From contig CADASP010000008.1 in NCBI GenBank assembly GCA_902790625.1, positions 1 to 64,000 of the forward strand: a stretch of 64,000 nt of DNA. Reading direction: 5' to 3'. The DNA is from an uncultured Prevotellaceae bacterium. GTDB taxonomy: Bacteria > Bacteroidota > Bacteroidia > Bacteroidales > Bacteroidaceae. This document shows, one piece after another, positions 25,190 to 57,646 of this stretch. The notes beneath the pieces are model-generated. The model was not told the origin of the DNA. It worked only from the letters and a program-made list of their open reading frames with translations, and did not search any database. The position numbers and the translations under genes are program-made. Within the stretch, counting starts at the first letter, position 1, and each line of letters starts with the position of its first letter.

Positions 25190-25313
25190 TGGTTATTAAA
25201 TGAAGAGTGAAGAATGAAGAACCTATTAACGCTATCATCTTGTTTTCTTACTGTCAGCTGTAAGAACTGTAAGACTGGTTATTAAATGAAGAATCTATTT
25301 AAATGAAGAGTGA
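25142..25313. repeat. 86-bp tandem duplication
   Basis: Copy 1 at 25142-25227 and copy 2 at 25228-25313 each carry the right-arm repeat, then GACTGGTTATTAAATGAAGA. They differ at several bases, mostly in the second half. Confidence 0.7.
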
Positions 25314-25379
25314 AGAGTGAAGAATGAAGAATCTCTTGCGTCCCTTTGGTAGCAAGCGGCAGAGCCGAGCGGCTACCGC
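25301..25379. repeat. GAAGAATGAAG-type dispersed repeat, left-end module
   Basis: A GAAGAGTGAAGAATGAAGAAT stretch runs into TCTTGCGTCCC, AGCAAGCGGCAGAGCCGAGC and GGCTACCGC. The same order is found at 33109-33187, where it is the left end of the S23 cassette. Here no matching right end or gene follows. Confidence 0.75.
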
Positions 25380-25598
25380 GCTGGAAATGAGGAGGGAAGA
25401 ATCTCTTGCGGCAAGTAATTTAGCAAAGGATTTATTACGCCCTTACAGTTCTGACAGCTGACAGTAAGGAAAAATGCCACATCTCGACAAAAAAAGAACA
25501 AGTTCCTTTGTTTTGAACTCGACTTTTCGTCGCTCGACGCTCGCGTCGCTTGCTTTTTGCAAGAACTTTGGCTTCGCCGAACTTACTTGTCACTCGGA

Positions 25599-28200: not shown

Positions 28201-28262
28201 AGGAGATGAGGAGTTTAGGAGTTTGGGAGTTTAGGAGTTTGGGAGTTTAGGAGTTTGGACGA
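28201..28262. repeat. GAGTTTAGGAGTTTGG tandem repeat
   Basis: About four 16-bp units GGAGTTTAGGAGTTTG lie upstream of the membrane-protein gene. A related but inverted-repeat version is at 57556-57646. Confidence 0.7.
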
Positions 28263-32431: not shown

Positions 32432-33100
32432 TTACTTTTTCAACTTCTCAATATATCCCAGCGCTTCCTTGCACTTGTCGGTGACATACTGCCAGTCGGC
32501 GGCCTTCACTTTGTCTGAGGGGAAGAGCTTTGAGCCCATGCCCACGCAGAAGACGCCAGCCTTGAACCACTTCGTCAGGTTCTCCTCGTCGGGCGAGACG
32601 CCGCCGGTGACCATGATTTTCGACCAAGGCATGGGAGCCTTCAGGCCTTTCACCATGTTGGGGCCTACCACGTCGCCGGGGAACACCTTCGTGAGGTCGC
32701 AACCCAGCTCCTGAGCCTTGCCAATCTCGCTGACGGTCATGCAGCCAGGGCAGTAGGGGATGAGTCGGCGGTTGCACACAGGGGCGATGTCGGGGTTGAA
32801 CAGCGGGCCCACCACGAAGCAGGCTCCCAGCTGAATATACATGGCTGCCGTGGGGGCGTCAACCACGCTGCCGATGCCGAGTGCCAGTTCGGGGCACTCC
32901 TTGTCGGCCCATTTCACCAGTTCGCCGAACACCTCTTGGGCGAAGTCGCCACGATTAGTGAACTCGAAGGCGCGCACACCACCTTCATAGCAAGCCTTCA
33001 CTACGTTCTTGCACGTCTCTAAATCTTTGTGATAGAACACAGGCACCATGCCTGTTGAGCCTATCTTGGCCATCACGGCCAGCTTGTCGAATTTTGCCAT
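32432..33100 (-). CDS. kdgA: KDPG/KHG aldolase
   Basis: 222 residues. Cleaves 2-keto-3-deoxy-6-phosphogluconate to pyruvate and glyceraldehyde 3-phosphate. Class I aldolase features: Glu in AFEFTNRG, the substrate-binding [30 protein letters not shown], and Schiff-base Lys in DLTKVFPGD. Downstream of kdgK in the same direction, with the S23 cassette between them. With kdgK it forms the lower route of uronate breakdown. A short promoter-less gap suggests read-through from kdgK. Confidence 0.93.
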
Positions 33101-33108
33101 AATTATTT

Positions 33109-33645
33109 AAATGAAGAATGAAGAGTGAAGAATGAAGAATTTCTTGCGTCCCGTTGGTGGCAAGCGGCAGAGCCGAGCAGCTACCGCATTTCTACTTCGA
33201 CATCCATCCTCCATATTGTTGTTATAAATTATTATTTCTTTTTGCGGTTTTAATTGATGAAACCAATAAGGCTATCAACTCGCTGCAATCATCTGCCATG
33301 CTATCAAATTCTTTATCAGTCAAATAATTAGTGTCATGGAGTAAATTAAGCCAGTTCATAGTCTCATTGGCTTCTTTTAGTGCTATATGAAGCTTGGTGA
33401 TGAAGTCTGAAGGACTTTGCGCAAATTCCGATTCATGCACATTAGCAGACACTGACGTACCTGATCGCAAAACTTGCTTGTAGATAGCTTGAAGCTTCCA
33501 ATCGCAGCCTGTGAAATGAAGAAACATCTTAACGATGCGCACTGCAAAAGAATAACTCTTAATATGCAGCACCGATCCGTCTCTCCGATAGTTTTTCATC
33601 ATTGCGGCAGCAAATTCTTCATTCTTCACTCTTCATTCTTCATTT
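33109..33645 (-). mobile_element. 537-bp cassette with perfect 34-bp terminal inverted repeats and an S23-like gene
   Basis: 33109-33142 and 33612-33645 are exact reverse complements (core GAAGAATGAAGAGTGAAGAA). The right end touches the kdgK stop codon (33646-33648) and the left end lies 8 bp before the kdgA start. Subterminal pieces match other loci: GCGGCAGCAAATTC as in 54670-54683 and TCTTGCGTCCC...GGCAGAGCCGAGC as in 25334-25370. The contained gene is in the same sense as kdgK and kdgA. Confidence 0.8.
33222..33602 (-). CDS. Four-helix-bundle protein (S23/IVP family)
   Basis: 126 residues from ATG 33602 (or 33599); an upstream GTG lies inside the inverted repeat and is not favoured. Family motifs of the 23S rRNA intervening-sequence-encoded protein: KSYSFAVRIVKMFLHF, RSGTSVSANVHESEFAQSPSDFITKLHIALKEANET and a closing helix ELIALLVSSIKTAK. 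The family includes proteins encoded within excised rRNA segments and the accessory Avd proteins of diversity-generating retroelements; no reverse transcriptase is nearby. It is the only gene inside the inverted-repeat cassette. Confidence 0.85.
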   Translation of the reverse strand: MMKNYRRDGSVLHIKSYSFAVRIVKMFLHFTGCDWKLQAIYKQVLRSGTSVSANVHESEFAQSPSDFITKLHIALKEANETMNWLNLLHDTNYLTDKEFDSMADDCSELIALLVSSIKTAKRNNNL

Positions 33646-34668
33646 TTATCGTTGCACTCTTCCGTTTGCATTGCCACCGGCCAAGGCTTCCACTTCGTCG
33701 GCGGTCACCAGGTTGAAGTCCCCGTTGATGGTGTGCTTCAGGGCACTGGCGGCAACGGCGAACTCAAGGGCCTCGCCCTGCGTCGGCTTGGTCAGCAGAC
33801 CGTGGATGAGACCACCCGAGAACGAGTCGCCACCGCCCACGCGGTCGATGATGGGGTTGATTTCGTAGCGCTTGCTCTGGTAGAATTCCTTACCATCGTA
33901 GATGAGTGCCTTCCAACCGTTGTAGGTGGCGCTGTAGCTCTCGCGTAGGGTAGAGACCACATACTTGAAGCCGAACTCCTGCATCATCTGACGGAAGATG
34001 CCTTCGTAGCCAGCAGCATCGGTCTGGCCACCCTCTACGTCGGCATCGGGCTTGAAGCCAAGGCACAGCTCGGCATCCTCTTCGTTGCCGATGCACACGT
34101 CGACATACTTCATCAGCGGACGCATGATGCTGATAGCTTTCTGGCTGGTCCACAGCTTCTTACGGAAGTTCAGGTCGACGCTCACCGTGACACCGTGGCG
34201 CTTGGCGGCCTCGCAAGCCAGGCGAGTTAGCTCGGCAGCCTTGTCGCTGATGGCGGGCGTGATGCCGCTCCAGTGGAACCACTGTGCGCCTTCCATCACC
34301 TTGTCGAAGTCGAAGTCGGCTGCTTCAGCCTCAGCAATAGCACTATGAGCACGGTCGTAAATCACCTTCGAGGGTCGCATGGAGGCTCCAGTCTCAGCGT
34401 AGTAGAGTCCGATGCGGTCGCCGCCACGCACGATGAAGTCGGTGTTCACACCATAGCGGCGAAGGGCGTTCACGGCAATCTGGCCAATCTCATGCTTCGG
34501 CAGCTTGCTCACGAAATAGGCTTCATGCCCATAGTTGGCCACACTGATGGCCACGTTGGCTTCGCCGCCACCGGGGATGATACGGAAACTTTCACTCTGG
34601 ATGAAACGGTCGTTGCCCTGGGGCGACAGGCGGAGCATAATCTCGCCAAGTGTTACAATCTTTGCCAT
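33646..34668 (-). CDS. kdgK: 2-keto-3-deoxygluconate kinase (PfkB family)
   Basis: 340 residues. Phosphorylates KDG to KDPG with ATP. PfkB signatures: IIPGGGEANVAISVANYG near the N-terminus and DRVGGGDSFSGGLIHGLL near the C-terminus, the Asp being the catalytic base. Substrate-side features RIGLYYAETGASMRPS and VSVDLNFRKKLW are typical of KdgK. Probably first gene of a kdgK-(S23 cassette)-kdgA transcript, with a promoter at 34712-34742. Confidence 0.93.
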   Translation of the reverse strand: MAKIVTLGEIMLRLSPQGNDRFIQSESFRIIPGGGEANVAISVANYGHEAYFVSKLPKHEIGQIAVNALRRYGVNTDFIVRGGDRIGLYYAETGASMRPSKVIYDRAHSAIAEAEAADFDFDKVMEGAQWFHWSGITPAISDKAAELTRLACEAAKRHGVTVSVDLNFRKKLWTSQKAISIMRPLMKYVDVCIGNEEDAELCLGFKPDADVEGGQTDAAGYEGIFRQMMQEFGFKYVVSTLRESYSATYNGWKALIYDGKEFYQSKRYEINPIIDRVGGGDSFSGGLIHGLLTKPTQGEALEFAVAASALKHTINGDFNLVTADEVEALAGGNANGRVQR

Positions 34669-37204: not shown

Positions 37205-37227
37205 TATTTATTGTTACTTTTCACTTA

Positions 37228-39675
37228 TCACTTTTCACTTATCTTGGTTCCCCTTCCGCTGCTGACGATGAGTTCGCGCAACTGGTCGTTCAGGTCGTCA
37301 GCCTGCATCAGTTGCTCTATCGTCATGTGCATGCGATAGCGCCAATAGTGACGTGGGTTGGCGGGGATGTTGATGCGCTCGGCATTTTGGTCGGGCAGTC
37401 TGAGTCTCTCGTTGATGCTGAGCCAATCTTGCAGGGAGAGCAGACAGAGCATGCTGGGCGACGTGAGGTGACGGCTCACGATGTCCTTGGCCAGCCATCC
37501 TGGTAGCGGATGGGGTGCGTTGCCAGAGCGGTAGAGCATGGTGTTGTAATAGTCTTGCGTGCGCTCCTCGTCCTCGTCCCACCATTGGCGCAGTGTGCTC
37601 ATATCGTGGGTGCTGATGGTGCACACCGAGCGGTAGGGATTGCGACTGAGGTGGCCGAAGCGCACAGCCGGGTCTTTGGGCATCGACTGTATCTCGAGCG
37701 ACAGGATGCGCAGCTCGTTCATCACCCAAGGCACACAGTCGGGCACCATGCCCAAGTCTTCGGCACAGCAGAGCATGCGGGTGGCCTGGGTGAGCCGCGG
37801 CAGCTTCTTCATCGCCTCCTGATACCAGAACTGATTCATCCGGCGATAGAAGTAGTCGTTGTAGAGATTCCAGAAGCGCTGGCGCTCGTCCTCGCTGAGC
37901 AGTTTCTCGAACTCGGGCATCTTCGGCGCATTGATGCGCGGATGCCAGGCATTGCCCACCGGCAACTTATGGTCGGGCAGGAACAGCTCTTCGTGGAATG
38001 GCACACCATAGGCCTCCACTTCCTGCCTTGTCATGGGCAGCGACGGCTGGAACTGTCCGTAGAGTCCGCTCTTCTGAGGCACGGGTATCTCCCAGATGCG
38101 GAAGAATCCCAGCACGTGGTCGATGCGATAGGCATCGAAGTAGTGCTGCATCTTGCTGAAGCGGCGCACCCACCACTGGCAGCCATCTTTCATCATCTCG
38201 TCCCAGTTGTAGGTGGGGAAGCCCCAGTTCTGTCCGTCTTCGCTGAAGGCATCGGGTGGTGCTCCAGCCTGTCCGTTCAGGTTGAAGTAGCGAGGCTCCA
38301 CCCACGCTTCCACGCCATCGCGACTGATGCCGATGGGGATGTCGCCCTTCAGTATCACTCCTTTGCTGCGCGCATGCTGGTGGGCATCGTGCATCTGCTG
38401 GTCGAGGTTGAACTGCACATAGCACCAGAAGTCGATGGTCTTAGGGTCGACCTTTGCCAAAGGTTCTGGCCACTGGCTGAAAGTGGACGTGCCGTAGAGG
38501 TCGCGGTAGAAGCAGAATCGGGCGTAGGGCTCAAGCCACTCTTTGTTCTCGGCCATGAACTCGCGATAGGCCTTCGTGCGCTTCACCCTCGCCCCTTCTT
38601 GTGCATACAGTTCGTGCAAATAGTCCATTTTAGCACGGAACATACGCTCGTAATCAATCTGGGGCAACTGGTTCAACTCTTGCCGAAGTTCCTCATAGTA
38701 TTGGCGGCGGCTCTCATCCTTCAGCTGTGGCAACTGCCTGAAGTCGGTGTACTGGGGATGGAGGGCGTAGATGCTGATGCTGTTGTAGGGATAGGAGTCT
38801 TGCCACGTGCCCGAGATGTTGGTGTCGTTGATGGGCAGTATCTGCAATATGCGCTGCTGCGTGGAGGCACACCAGTCGACCATCATCTTCAGGTCGCCAA
38901 AGTCGCCTACGCCAAAGCTGCCCTCGCTGCGCAACGAGAACACGGGGATGACGGTGCCGGCACCCTTCCAGGGATGAACGGCGAAGAAGGCCTGTGGGAG
39001 TTCGTAGACGAGCACATCCGACGTCTGCACGCCTACGGTGGGAAGCTCCACGAAGCGGTTGTTACCTGTCTCCCAGGCCACCGCTCCCCTACTGTCGACC
39101 GTGATGAACTTGAACTCGAAGCGCCCGGGCAAGCGGTCGCCATCGAGGCTCACCACCCACTCGTGGCTCTCGTGCTCGTTCATCGCCAGAGCCTTGTCGG
39201 TGTTCCACCCACCCAGATAGTGGGGCGCTCCCACCATAGCCAGACGCTGGTTTTTGCGCAACTGCGGTGCACGAACCTTCAGGCGCACCGTCCGCTGAAA
39301 CTCGCTGCCTGGACTCAGCTGGCGCTGGCGGTTCATCACACAGTCGGTGAAAGCCGATGAATAGAGGTAGGCATCGTCGGGGGTGTCAATCCAATGGTCG
39401 AAGACGATGTAGCGCATGCCATTCGTGGCGGCCATCTCAAGTCTGTGGGGTTCCACCTTCCATTCGTGGCGCACCTCATCCTCTCCCAATACCACGCTAT
39501 AGTAGTAGTCGAAATAGCTCCCTGGCATGCCGTCCCACTCTAACTGGCAAGTCCAGTTACGCCCGTTAGTGGTCTGCATGCAGTGGGTCGTGGCATCACC
39601 ATCTGGGCCGAGGATGTTCAGGCACAGCTGCTCGCCAAACGAAGTAAAATACTCAATGTTGAAAAGCAATTGCAT
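37228..39675 (-). CDS. malQ: 4-alpha-glucanotransferase (GH77, DPE2-like with CBM20 modules)
   Basis: 815 residues. Two N-terminal starch-binding CBM20-like modules (about 1-110 and 125-235; MVGAPHYLGGWNTDKALAM) precede the GH77 catalytic barrel. Catalytic residues: nucleophile Asp in FDAYRIDHVLGFFRIW, acid Glu in CAEDLGMVPDCV and the third Asp in ISTHDMSTLRQWW. The double-CBM layout is that of the DPE2-like disproportionating enzymes, which act on maltose and long glucans in the cytosol. Partner of glgB in alpha-glucan metabolism. No signal peptide. Confidence 0.93.
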   Translation of the reverse strand: MQLLFNIEYFTSFGEQLCLNILGPDGDATTHCMQTTNGRNWTCQLEWDGMPGSYFDYYYSVVLGEDEVRHEWKVEPHRLEMAATNGMRYIVFDHWIDTPDDAYLYSSAFTDCVMNRQRQLSPGSEFQRTVRLKVRAPQLRKNQRLAMVGAPHYLGGWNTDKALAMNEHESHEWVVSLDGDRLPGRFEFKFITVDSRGAVAWETGNNRFVELPTVGVQTSDVLVYELPQAFFAVHPWKGAGTVIPVFSLRSEGSFGVGDFGDLKMMVDWCASTQQRILQILPINDTNISGTWQDSYPYNSISIYALHPQYTDFRQLPQLKDESRRQYYEELRQELNQLPQIDYERMFRAKMDYLHELYAQEGARVKRTKAYREFMAENKEWLEPYARFCFYRDLYGTSTFSQWPEPLAKVDPKTIDFWCYVQFNLDQQMHDAHQHARSKGVILKGDIPIGISRDGVEAWVEPRYFNLNGQAGAPPDAFSEDGQNWGFPTYNWDEMMKDGCQWWVRRFSKMQHYFDAYRIDHVLGFFRIWEIPVPQKSGLYGQFQPSLPMTRQEVEAYGVPFHEELFLPDHKLPVGNAWHPRINAPKMPEFEKLLSEDERQRFWNLYNDYFYRRMNQFWYQEAMKKLPRLTQATRMLCCAEDLGMVPDCVPWVMNELRILSLEIQSMPKDPAVRFGHLSRNPYRSVCTISTHDMSTLRQWWDEDEERTQDYYNTMLYRSGNAPHPLPGWLAKDIVSRHLTSPSMLCLLSLQDWLSINERLRLPDQNAERINIPANPRHYWRYRMHMTIEQLMQADDLNDQLRELIVSSGRGTKISEK

Positions 39676-40888: not shown

Positions 40889-40927
40889 TCAATTTTTACT
40901 TTTCACTTCTCACTTTTCACTTCTCAC

Positions 40928-42271
40928 TTAAAAAGTGTTTGCCACCAGCGCCGAGTGGTCGTGGTTGAAGCCGCCCAGCCTGACGGTGACGAGCTGATTG
41001 TCGAGTTCGGGCGAGGCAAGGCGTGCAGGCAGCTCCACACGCACATAGTTGCGCGTAAATCCGTGCATGGCTCTGCCCCGTGTGGCCTTCTCCAACAGCA
41101 CCTCGGCATCTTGGCCCATATATTGTGCATAGAATGCCTCCGTCTTTTGGTCGGAGAGTTCGAGCAACCGCTTGCTGCGGTGTTTCTTCTCTTCCTCGCT
41201 CACCACGTAGGGGATTTTAAGCGCAGCCGTGCCAGGACGTTCGCTGTATGGAAATACATGAAGCTGGCTGACAGGCAATTGGTTGATTAACGCAAAGGTT
41301 TGCTCAAAGCATTCGGCGGTCTCGCCCCTACAGCCTACCATCACATCCACACCAATGAATGCATCGGGCATCACCTGTTTGATGTGCTCAATCTTTTGGG
41401 CGAAGAGACGGCTGTCGTAGTGGCGGTGCATCAGCCTAAGCACCTCGTCGCTGCCGCTCTGAAGGGGGATATGGAAGTGGGGCATGAAAGCCCGGCTATG
41501 CGCGCAATAGTCGATGAGGTCGTCGCTGAGCAAGTCGGGTTCCAGACTGCTGATGCGGTATCGGCTGATGCCTTCCACCTGGTCGAGAGCCTTTACCAAG
41601 TCGATGAATTTTTCGCCTGTGCTCTTCCCAAAGTCGCCGATGTTTACTCCTGTGAGAACGATTTCCTTACCCCCCTGGTCGGCGGCCTGTCGCGCCTGCT
41701 CCACCAGCGAGGCGATAGTGGGGTTGCGGCTGAAACCGCGAGCGTAAGGGATGGCACAATAGGTGCAGAAATAGTCGCAGCCGTCCTGCACCTTCAGAAA
41801 ATAGCGGGTGCGGTTGCCACGCGAGCAGCTGGGAGCGAAGCTCACAATATCCTTCGTCTTCTGGGTGTAGCAGGGCGCAGGGGCGGTAGACTTCTCGCCT
41901 CCCCCACCCCACTCCTCCGCCAGGAACTGCACCAGCTGGGCTTTCTCGTTGCTGCCCAGCACCAGGCTGACGCCGTCGATGTGGCTCACGGCCTGTGGTT
42001 CCAGCTGGGCGTAGCATCCTGTGACCACCACAAAGGCTCGTGGGTGCTGGCGAACCAGGCGATGGATGGCTTGGCGGCATTTGCGCGAGGCCACCTCGGT
42101 CACCGTGCAGGTGTTCACAATGCAAATGTCGACTTCCTCCCCCTTTTCTGCCGTGCGCACTCCCAGTTGCTGCAGCAAGCGTCCAAAGGTCGAGGTCTCA
42201 GAGAAGTTCAGCTTGCAGCCTAATGTGAAGTAGGCCGCTGTCTTACCCTGAAATGCTGATGAGTCTATCAT
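40928..42271 (-). CDS. mtaB: tRNA t6A37 methylthiotransferase MtaB
   Basis: 447 residues. Adds a methylthio group to t6A37 of tRNA using two Fe-S clusters. N-terminal UPF0004 domain with Cys in LGCKLNFSET, VNTCTVTEVASRKCRQ and TGCYAQLEP; radical-SAM cluster in CDYFCTYCAIPYARG; radical-SAM core (VLTGVNIGDFG, FHIPLQSGSDEVLRLMHR); C-terminal TRAM domain. The KCRQ and CDYFCTYC context fits MtaB rather than MiaB or RimO. A Gly-rich spacer (EEWGGGGEKS) separates the first two domains. Confidence 0.93.
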   Translation of the reverse strand: MIDSSAFQGKTAAYFTLGCKLNFSETSTFGRLLQQLGVRTAEKGEEVDICIVNTCTVTEVASRKCRQAIHRLVRQHPRAFVVVTGCYAQLEPQAVSHIDGVSLVLGSNEKAQLVQFLAEEWGGGGEKSTAPAPCYTQKTKDIVSFAPSCSRGNRTRYFLKVQDGCDYFCTYCAIPYARGFSRNPTIASLVEQARQAADQGGKEIVLTGVNIGDFGKSTGEKFIDLVKALDQVEGISRYRISSLEPDLLSDDLIDYCAHSRAFMPHFHIPLQSGSDEVLRLMHRHYDSRLFAQKIEHIKQVMPDAFIGVDVMVGCRGETAECFEQTFALINQLPVSQLHVFPYSERPGTAALKIPYVVSEEEKKHRSKRLLELSDQKTEAFYAQYMGQDAEVLLEKATRGRAMHGFTRNYVRVELPARLASPELDNQLVTVRLGGFNHDHSALVANTF

Positions 42272-53689: not shown

Positions 53690-53752
53690 CCTAAAGGGTG
53701 GAAAGCCCCCGCCCCTGCTCCAAGGGCCGCTGTGCGCCGACCATCTTGTCGG
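53690..53752. repeat. GC hairpin plus CCGCTGTGCGCCGACC module
   Basis: CCACCCCCTAAAGGGTGG forms a short hairpin right after the lipoprotein stop (53684-53701), followed by CCCCCGCCCCTGCTCC and the 26-bp module matching 42395-42420. Confidence 0.65.
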
Positions 53753-53788
53753 CGGATGAACCAATCACAAGAATCATTGATGCCTAAT

Positions 53789-54934
53789 ATGAACGAAACA
53801 ACAAACAAACGCCTACTGTCACTCGATGTGCTGCGCGGCCTCACCGTGGCGGGCATGATTCTGGTGAACAATGGCTATGGCGAGAGCTTCGAGATGCTCA
53901 GGCATGCCAAGTGGAACGGCATGACGCCCTGCGACCTGGTGTTCCCCTTCTTCCTCTTCATCGTCGGAGTGTCGTGCTACCTCTCGATGTCGAAGACCAA
54001 CTTCCAGCCATCGCGCCCCACCCTGCTCCGTGTGGTGCGCCGCACGGTGCTGCTCTTCGCCCTGGGCTTGGCCATCAACTGGTTCGACCACGCCATCGAG
54101 GGCGACGTGCTCTGCTTCGGCCACCTGCGCCTTTGGGCGGTGTTGCAGCGCATCGCACTGTGCTATTTCTTCGCCTCGCTCTTCGCCCTCTACGCCAACC
54201 ATCGCTACATCCTCCACACCGTCGTCGCCCTGCTGGCCACCTATGCCCTCATCCTGCTGCTGGGCAACGGCTATGCCGAGGATGCGTCGGTGAACATCTT
54301 GGCGCAGGTCGACGTGAGCCTCTTTGGCACGGAGCACCTCTACCACAAGAGTCCCGTCGACCCCGAAGGGCTGATGGGCACCATCAGCGGTGTGGCCCAT
54401 GTGTTGCTGGGCTTCTGGTGCGGAAAGCAAATCAAGCAGCGCAATGGCATCGAGGAGAAGGCGCTGGCTGTCTTCGCCCTGGGCGCCGTGTGCGTTGTCG
54501 GTGGCTATCTGCTCAGCTATGGTCTGCCCCTCAACAAGCGCATCTGGAGCCCCAGCTACGTGCTGATGACCTGCGGACTATGCTCGCTGCTGCTGGCACT
54601 GTTTATAAATGAAGAACGAAGAGTGAAGAATGAAGAATTTGCTGCCGCCATCCCGTCAGGTGAAGATAAGGCGGCAGCAAATTCTTCATTCTTCACTCTT
54701 CATTCTTCATTTTTCCGTGTGTTCGGCGTCAACGCCCTCGCCCTCTACGTGTGCAGCGAGCTGCTGGCCATCCTCTTTTGGCATTTCGGCATCAGCGACA
54801 TCATCTACAACGCCCTGCACTCGGTCATTCCTTGGGACAAATGGGCATCGCTGGCCTACGCTCTCACCTTCGTGGCCATCAATTATGTGATAGGCTACAT
54901 CCTGTGGAAACGAAAGATATTCATTAAACTATAA
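53789..54934 (+). CDS. DUF5009/DUF1624-type acyltransferase-like membrane protein
   Basis: 381 residues from ATG 53789 (ATG 53780 also possible). Related to heparan-alpha-glucosaminide N-acetyltransferases: N-terminal SLDVLRGLTVAGMILVNN and WNGMTPCDLVFPFFLFIVGVS hold the family Asp/Arg and catalytic-region residues, then about ten TM segments (LRLWAVLQRIALCYFFASL, GTISGVAHVLLGFWCGK, IWSPSYVLMTCGLCSL). Probably acylates a cell-envelope sugar. A 106-bp inverted-repeat element is read in frame (about residues 274-308, RRVKNEEFAAA ... ANSSFFTLHSSFF) in a loop between TM segments. Confidence 0.88.
   Translation: MNETTNKRLLSLDVLRGLTVAGMILVNNGYGESFEMLRHAKWNGMTPCDLVFPFFLFIVGVSCYLSMSKTNFQPSRPTLLRVVRRTVLLFALGLAINWFDHAIEGDVLCFGHLRLWAVLQRIALCYFFASLFALYANHRYILHTVVALLATYALILLLGNGYAEDASVNILAQVDVSLFGTEHLYHKSPVDPEGLMGTISGVAHVLLGFWCGKQIKQRNGIEEKALAVFALGAVCVVGGYLLSYGLPLNKRIWSPSYVLMTCGLCSLLLALFINEERRVKNEEFAAAIPSGEDKAAANSSFFTLHSSFFRVFGVNALALYVCSELLAILFWHFGISDIIYNALHSVIPWDKWASLAYALTFVAINYVIGYILWKRKIFIKL
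54607..54712. repeat. Hairpin element with 43-bp arms inside the DUF5009-type gene
   Basis: Arms 54607-54649 and 54670-54712 are inverted copies with one mismatch (AAC versus AAT) and a 20-nt loop. The arms contain the same GAAGAATGAAGAGTGAAG core as the S23 cassette ends plus TTTGCTGCCGCC. No stop codon in the host frame. Confidence 0.88.
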
Positions 54935-57544: not shown

Positions 57545-57555
57545 GGGGTGCTTTG

Positions 57556-57646
57556 AGTTAGGAGTTTGGAGTTAGGAGTTAGGAGTTGTTTCGAGTTCGG
57601 AGTTCTTTCGAGTTAGGGAAACTCCTCATTCCTCACTCCTAACTAA
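57556..57646. terminator. GAGTTAGGAGTT repeat forming a hairpin between convergent genes
   Basis: Several GAGTTAGGAGTT-like units on the left are complementary to ACTCCTCATTCCTCACTCCTAACT on the right. The hairpin ends over the stop codon of the minus-strand gene. A role in termination is inferred; compare the repeat at 28201-28262. Confidence 0.5.

Follow-up and report, generated by a model that had tools for sequence, protein, structure and literature searches.

The window analysed here is a 64,000-nucleotide stretch of DNA from an uncultured Prevotellaceae bacterium (positions 1 to 64,000 of contig CADASP010000008.1, assembly GCA_902790625.1). On its minus strand, a PfkB sugar kinase gene of the kdgK type (33646–34668) lies upstream of a KDPG/KHG aldolase gene of the kdgA/eda type (32432–33100). 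The gap between them is 545 bp, and 537 of these are taken up by a cassette (33109–33645, minus strand), in agreement with the original prediction that an element fills almost the whole kdgK–kdgA gap in the sense direction of both genes. The sugar kinase, S23 and aldolase genes are all on the minus strand. The cassette is bounded by a perfect inverted repeat of 34 bp, also as predicted, with the 5′ arm at 33612–33645 and its reverse complement, the 3′ arm, at 33109–33142 (both minus strand); the match extends to 39 nt at 95%. The sole ORF of this full-length cassette is an S23 or four-helix-bundle gene of 135 aa (33222–33629, minus strand), and no transposase was found in it, which sets it apart from an IS or MITE system. 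Three things were overlooked in the earlier description, namely that the 34-bp end itself consists of imperfect tandem copies of the heptamer ATGAAGA, that the GTG start codon of the S23 gene sits inside the 5′ arm, which encodes the first residues of the protein (VKNEEF...), and that one related copy, at 54607, lies inside a coding gene. The last heptamer and an inner motif make up a composite end, TGAAGAATTTGCTGCCGC (33604–33621, minus strand), and on the 3′ side there is an inner segment, GCGGTAGC...GGGACGCAAG (33142–33190, minus strand), that is common to a solo end at 25333–25379.

The assignment of the gene to the S23 family of four-helix bundles holds up well against profiles and structures. 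The protein matches PF05635 with 79.3 bits (cut-off 33.8; E=3e-22) and TIGR02436 with 95 bits (cut-off 24; E=2.9e-27). An AF2 monomer model (pLDDT 90.6) was matched by Foldseek to 2rld (TM 0.93) and 2gsc (TM 0.78), and so has the four-helix-bundle fold of solved family members. The model resembles BT_0352 and XCC0516, and more weakly the DGR accessory protein Avd (4dwl, TM 0.83; 8ub7, 0.75). The solved relative XCC0516 is a pentamer according to a title cited in PMC10053308. The S23 protein is conserved, purifying selection acts on it (pN/pS about 0.1–0.25, with synonymous sites near saturation), and it contains no recognisable nuclease or transposase motif. There are 10 PF05635 matches in this genome of 4.14 Mb, which we label G000; other genomes of the genus also carry G numbers, and loci carry L numbers. 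A class of ~190–330 aa (L008–L010, L113–L126), with weak N-terminal PF05635 matches and mostly without inverted arms, forms a separate subfamily. Around one long-class gene (L118, in G011:C36) we see long repeats, TTAGCTCGCAATAGATC..., both inverted and direct, that are unlike the heptamer arms.

Copies of the cassette's ends are dispersed within this genome. A 28-bp version of the end gave 6 matches in the window, with 0 expected from shuffles, and a 32-mer gave 69 matches in the genome with ≤3 mismatches, compared to 0 in a reversed control. The composite end TGAAGAATTTGCTGCCGC occurs in 60 copies (≤2 mismatches), forming at least 11 inward-facing pairs. These counts bear out the suggestion of a dispersed family, and the two relatives that had been pointed out at 54607–54712 and 25301–25379 are real. 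Many of the dispersed copies are S23-less mini-elements. The one at 54607–54712 (plus strand) has the same arms and an inner TTTGCTGCCGC motif, and forms an almost perfect palindrome whose 52-nt arms match at 90%. It lies inside an HGSNAT/DUF5009-type acyltransferase gene (53732–54934, plus strand) whose reading frame stays open across the insertion, adding RVKNEEFAAA...SSFF, about 20 residues in a loop; the first of these residues are those of the S23 N-terminus. Acyltransferase homologues, here distant ones from plasmids as none was found among the loci compared, lack the loop or have a much shorter one. Rickettsia palindromic elements are likewise palindromic mini-elements inside protein-coding genes whose frame remains open; the element at 54607–54712 behaves similarly, but its sequence is unrelated as far as known, and its ends are those of the S23 cassette. 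The other relative (25301–25385, plus strand) is a solo end, wherein a heptamer array is joined to the 3′ inner segment of the cassette. Other 7- or 8-bp tandem arrays are found in short intergenic gaps of the window at 28201–28258, 37216–37243, 40893–40930 and 57554–57589, with the units GGAGTTTA, ACTTTTC/ACTTATC, CACTTTT/CACTTCT and GGAGTTA.

Empty kdgK–kdgA sites had been anticipated in related genomes, and we see that in most relatives the junction is indeed short or empty, or holds an array alone. Within the genus, the spacer is 5–11 bp in G018, G037, G031 and G033, while a heptamer or octamer array without a gene is present in, for example, G020, G035, G022, G007 and G025. The junction is occupied by S23 in G000, G028 and G008. 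The genes in the latter two genomes belong to one clade (69% identity), are 34–36% identical to the window S23, and have arms unrelated to those in the window. No clear target duplication could be seen at the junction in comparison with the empty junctions of relatives, which have diverged, and no transposition event was observed in the genomes compared. Vertical inheritance seems to account for many same-site S23 copies, and two recent copies on Calothrix plasmids have their flanks in common too, hence they give no boundary. In G034 and G004 (L048 and L057), the kdg junction holds a different small ORF of ~45 aa, suggesting that the gap is a recurrent landing place.

Cassettes also interrupt conserved gene pairs elsewhere, such as between hsdS and hsdR in Monoglobus (L376) and, in antisense, between nrdB and nrdA on a Nostoc edaphicum plasmid (L364) and between cas2 and cas1 on an Anabaena cylindrica plasmid (L377). 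Where both neighbours point the same way, S23 is in sense with them in 65 cases and antisense in 0 within the genus, and the corresponding count across phyla is 48 to 5. This bias fits a reliance on transcription of the host operon, or an RNA step.

The other S23 genes of G000 also lie between inverted short tandem repeats, with a different sequence at each locus. To score arms, the flank upstream of each gene was aligned locally with the downstream flank in reverse complement. For 92 S23 loci in 40 genomes of the genus the median score was 23.75, compared to 9.0 for cross-locus flanks and 9.5 for random window positions. Arms above the random 99th percentile were found for 91% of 75 short-class S23 genes, whereas the share in the ~250-aa class was no more than 12%; some 10% of the short-class genes have no detectable arms, and the ~250-aa class is mostly without them. 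A score of at least 20 was obtained for 77% of 77 S23 genes but 1.4% of 209 size-matched ORFs (80–220 aa) from the same 40 genomes (Fisher p=5e-41), meaning that arms are enriched ~50-fold at S23 genes. As had been proposed for checking, S23-like genes in related genomes do sit between inverted repeats in those 77%, with a repeat that differs between loci but matches at both ends. Chance low-complexity repeats are ruled out as the source of the arms by the shuffles and the size-matched ORFs. Separately, inverted arms were seen around GxxExxY (PDDEXK_3) genes at L285:10575–11012 in G000 (score 24) and at L372:1198–1572 on a Bernardetia plasmid (score 18), while three other plasmid GxxExxY genes had none. 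GxxExxY may be a second gene family that uses the same kind of ends.

Outside the genus, an S23 gene was found in 45/61 genomes of Bacteroidota, and most loci examined there have arms, weaker on average. A cross-phylum scan for the classic S23 subfamily, using one genome per species, gave 80 loci from Cyanobacteria, several Pseudomonadota classes, Planctomycetota, Clostridia, Chloroflexota, Acidobacteriota and a Methanophagales archaeon, among others. Arms scored above the cross-locus 99th percentile in 41/80 of these, against a control that is inflated by common G-rich heptamers. The best period was 7 in 45 of 55 arms and 8 in a further 6, the 5′ arm had more G than C in 54/55, and the median arm length was 31 nt. 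The repeats include (TAGGGAA)n in Anabaena, AGTAGTC/AGTAGCC in a deltaproteobacterium and AGTGGTT in Ruminococcus. For the subfamily of the window S23 (RSGTS..AN..E), plasmids were searched with a self-written, consensus-like subfamily sequence rather than a database record. Arms with scores of 17.5–26 were found on plasmids of Treponema, Nostoc, Monoglobus, Anabaena, Bernardetia and Chlorohelix. Plasmid loci of Cyanobacteria, Spirochaetota, Bacillota and Chloroflexota add to the breadth of the arrangement.

Gene and arms form one unit, which comes and goes at operon junctions and in which the arms follow the S23 lineage. For pairs at strictly different sites, where the flanking proteins show no resemblance, the similarity of the S23 proteins is correlated with that of their arms in 5-mer content (Mantel rho 0.24, or 0.244 with a looser site filter), compared to a null distribution with an sd of 0.031 and a maximum of 0.126 in 3000 permutations. 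The closest relative of the window S23, found at a different site in another genome (L039), has nearly the same heptamer. For same-site orthologues with S23 similarity of 0.4–0.6, the arm match is 25.1 within a locus but 8.7 between genomes, with this direction in 18/18 pairs. As the arms are matched within each locus and unrelated between genomes, this indicates that the two arms change in concert. The comparison of same-site and different-site pairs rules out that the arms are a property of the site and not of the gene. The inner motif TTTGCTACCGC is found with other heptamers at L037, L098, L106 and L088, and its retention there indicates that an element can exchange its array and otherwise remain as it was.

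Array density was also measured in stretches away from S23 loci. In 18 genomes, the density of period 7–9 arrays correlates with the number of short-class S23 genes (rho 0.53, p 0.023), compared to a rho of −0.09 for control periods. There was no significant difference between genomes with no S23 and those with at least one (p=0.30). Arrays are present in G018, a 90% complete draft with no S23 detected, which is a biased counter-example in that its stretches were partly chosen for known arrays. The window heptamer pattern (TGAAGAR x3) has 260 matches in G034, the most of the 40 genomes, and no S23 with such arms was detected there. These two genomes suggest that arrays can persist or spread without S23, and together with the non-significant contrast they contradict a rule that arrays occur only where S23 does. 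A GAGGTGA pattern has 87, 58 and 28 matches in three genomes whose S23 has GAGGTGA arms, and none in 27/40 genomes, but some genomes without that S23 have up to 41. The pattern counts thus agree only partly with the S23 link.

Several explanations can be set against these data. The original prediction was of an IVS-type RNA cassette, in which the arms would pair in the operon mRNA with S23 in the loop and RNase III would cut the duplex; on such a reading the element would be selected or tolerated since it folds out of the message. The 34-bp duplex does give a strong predicted stem enclosing S23 (MFE −189.7 kcal/mol, z −9.4), and the sense bias given above (65:0 and 48:5) speaks for this reading, as does the Coxiella rRNA IVS, which has complementary ends and a 28-bp stem, is processed by RNase III in vitro, and carries three heptameric repeats ahead of its S23 ORF (PMC4990558). 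With the 23S rRNA IVSs of Leptospira and Coxiella the window cassette shares the protein family, a single short sense ORF and complementary termini, and to this extent the comparison stands. The idea of a 23S rRNA IVS that has moved is not supported, as no overlap with an Rfam family was found in 20 S23 loci scanned, the window locus included. Unlike the rRNA IVSs, the window cassette lies between kdgK and kdgA with no rRNA, its arms are heptamer arrays that differ per locus, its processing is a prediction, and it has dispersed S23-less mini-copies. The latter are left unexplained by an RNA cassette, though such a cassette can coexist with DNA mobility. The antisense copies at Nostoc nrdB/nrdA and Anabaena cas2/cas1 also argue against it. 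Selection on the arms at the RNA level was rejected by the sense G-U asymmetry test: arm mismatches show no excess of sense-RNA G-U pairs (209 vs 261), and it therefore does not look as if selection for an RNA stem keeps the arms in place. In our view it is unlikely that the element is a cassette of this RNA type. The arrangement is pan-bacterial, so descent between rRNA IVS and operon cassette may have run either way.

Heptamer arrays as such have been reported from Xanthomonas (GGGAATC) and Nostoc (GGGGATT) (PMC4692102) and from Beggiatoaceae (TAACTGA) (PMC4679880). Those of Xanthomonas include 70–75 inverted convergent pairs, and the same report sees no general association of arrays with mobile elements (PMC4692102); those of Beggiatoaceae have no evident mechanism of spread (PMC4679880). 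They are like the arrays seen here in having a period of 7 and ~4 units, in lying between aligned ORFs, and in being G-rich after stop codons. They differ in that S23 or four-helix-bundle genes are unmentioned in both reports (PMC4692102, PMC4679880), whereas here the arrays bracket S23 in many phyla. We found no paper in the open-licence literature that links heptamer arrays to S23. Arrays could be made and spread by other machinery, such as a Y1 transposase of the REP type, a reverse transcriptase, or replication slippage combined with template switching, leaving S23 as a surviving passenger. This would suit the common occurrence of arrays without S23 (G018 and G034 included), the array-only kdg junctions and the GxxExxY gene that is also bracketed by inverted arms. 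As in RAYT/REPIN systems, a gene copy is flanked by inverted short repeats and many gene-less inverted pairs lie elsewhere in the genome; unlike in those systems, the cassette gene is S23 and not a Y1/HUH transposase, the ends are tandem heptamers and not REP palindromes, and the arms vary from locus to locus. A Y1/RAYT transposase was rejected as the driver since Y1_Tnp (PF01797) shows no association with arrays, being absent from array-rich G008, G019 and G035. The DGR accessory protein Avd has the same fold as S23, but RVT_1 is absent from the two S23-richest genomes, G028 (99% complete) and G008 (90%), so a reverse transcriptase was likewise rejected as the partner of S23. The ~50-fold enrichment of arms at S23 and the way in which arm sequences sort with S23 clade at unrelated sites also weigh against a passenger, and we consider this explanation rather improbable. 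Finally, S23 might not be mobile at all but a resident regulator, with co-evolving heptamer operators at its own gene and at target operons. Strong purifying selection on S23, same-site orthologues across species, and arrays at stop–start junctions as in Xanthomonas and Beggiatoaceae (PMC4692102, PMC4679880) are all compatible with such a role. It sits poorly with the patchy presence of different S23 clades at the kdg junction, the occurrence of one clade at unrelated sites and the mini-element inside a coding sequence; moreover, operators need not be inverted pairs around a gene. We regard a resident regulator as very unlikely.

With no RNA-pairing signature in the arms, no reverse transcriptase in the two S23-richest genomes and no Y1 transposase in several array-rich ones, the data favour mobility at the DNA level, with S23 recognising its own heptamer ends. 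We think it fairly probable that the window element belongs to a wide class of small S23 cassettes that are, or once were, mobile. Each would comprise one S23-family gene between inverted arrays of ~4–5 imperfect heptamers, G-rich on the 5′ side, with a short clade-specific motif inward of the array. S23 is likely the end-recognition factor: as an Avd-like bundle, it would bind the heptamer array at both ends, perhaps with one heptamer per subunit, and let host enzymes copy or join the ends. The cassette would thereby move as DNA, and mini-copies would move in trans. Landing in stop–start gaps would do the least harm, and we propose that cassettes persist in sense because they rely on transcription of the host operon.

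To our knowledge, what S23/IVS genes do and how they spread has gone unexplained for decades. The gene and its complementary ends were already familiar from rRNA IVSs; the link of S23 to heptamer arrays appears to be new within the open-licence literature. Intergenic heptamer arrays, reported independently in several phyla without a mechanism, are here tied to S23, and this link offers both puzzles a concrete agent, S23, and a concrete substrate, its own arm, that can be put to the test. A wider reading is possible, though we hold it only tentatively: the cassettes may form a pan-prokaryotic mobile class without a known transposase type, whose heptamer ends, variable and changing in concert, are recognised by an S23 ring, and from which both rRNA IVSs and the Xanthomonas, cyanobacterial and Beggiatoaceae arrays would derive. 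Tying S23 to the arrays would also add a kind of mobile element, found in operon junctions and lacking a recognised transposase, and suggests a possible ancestral role for the Avd fold.
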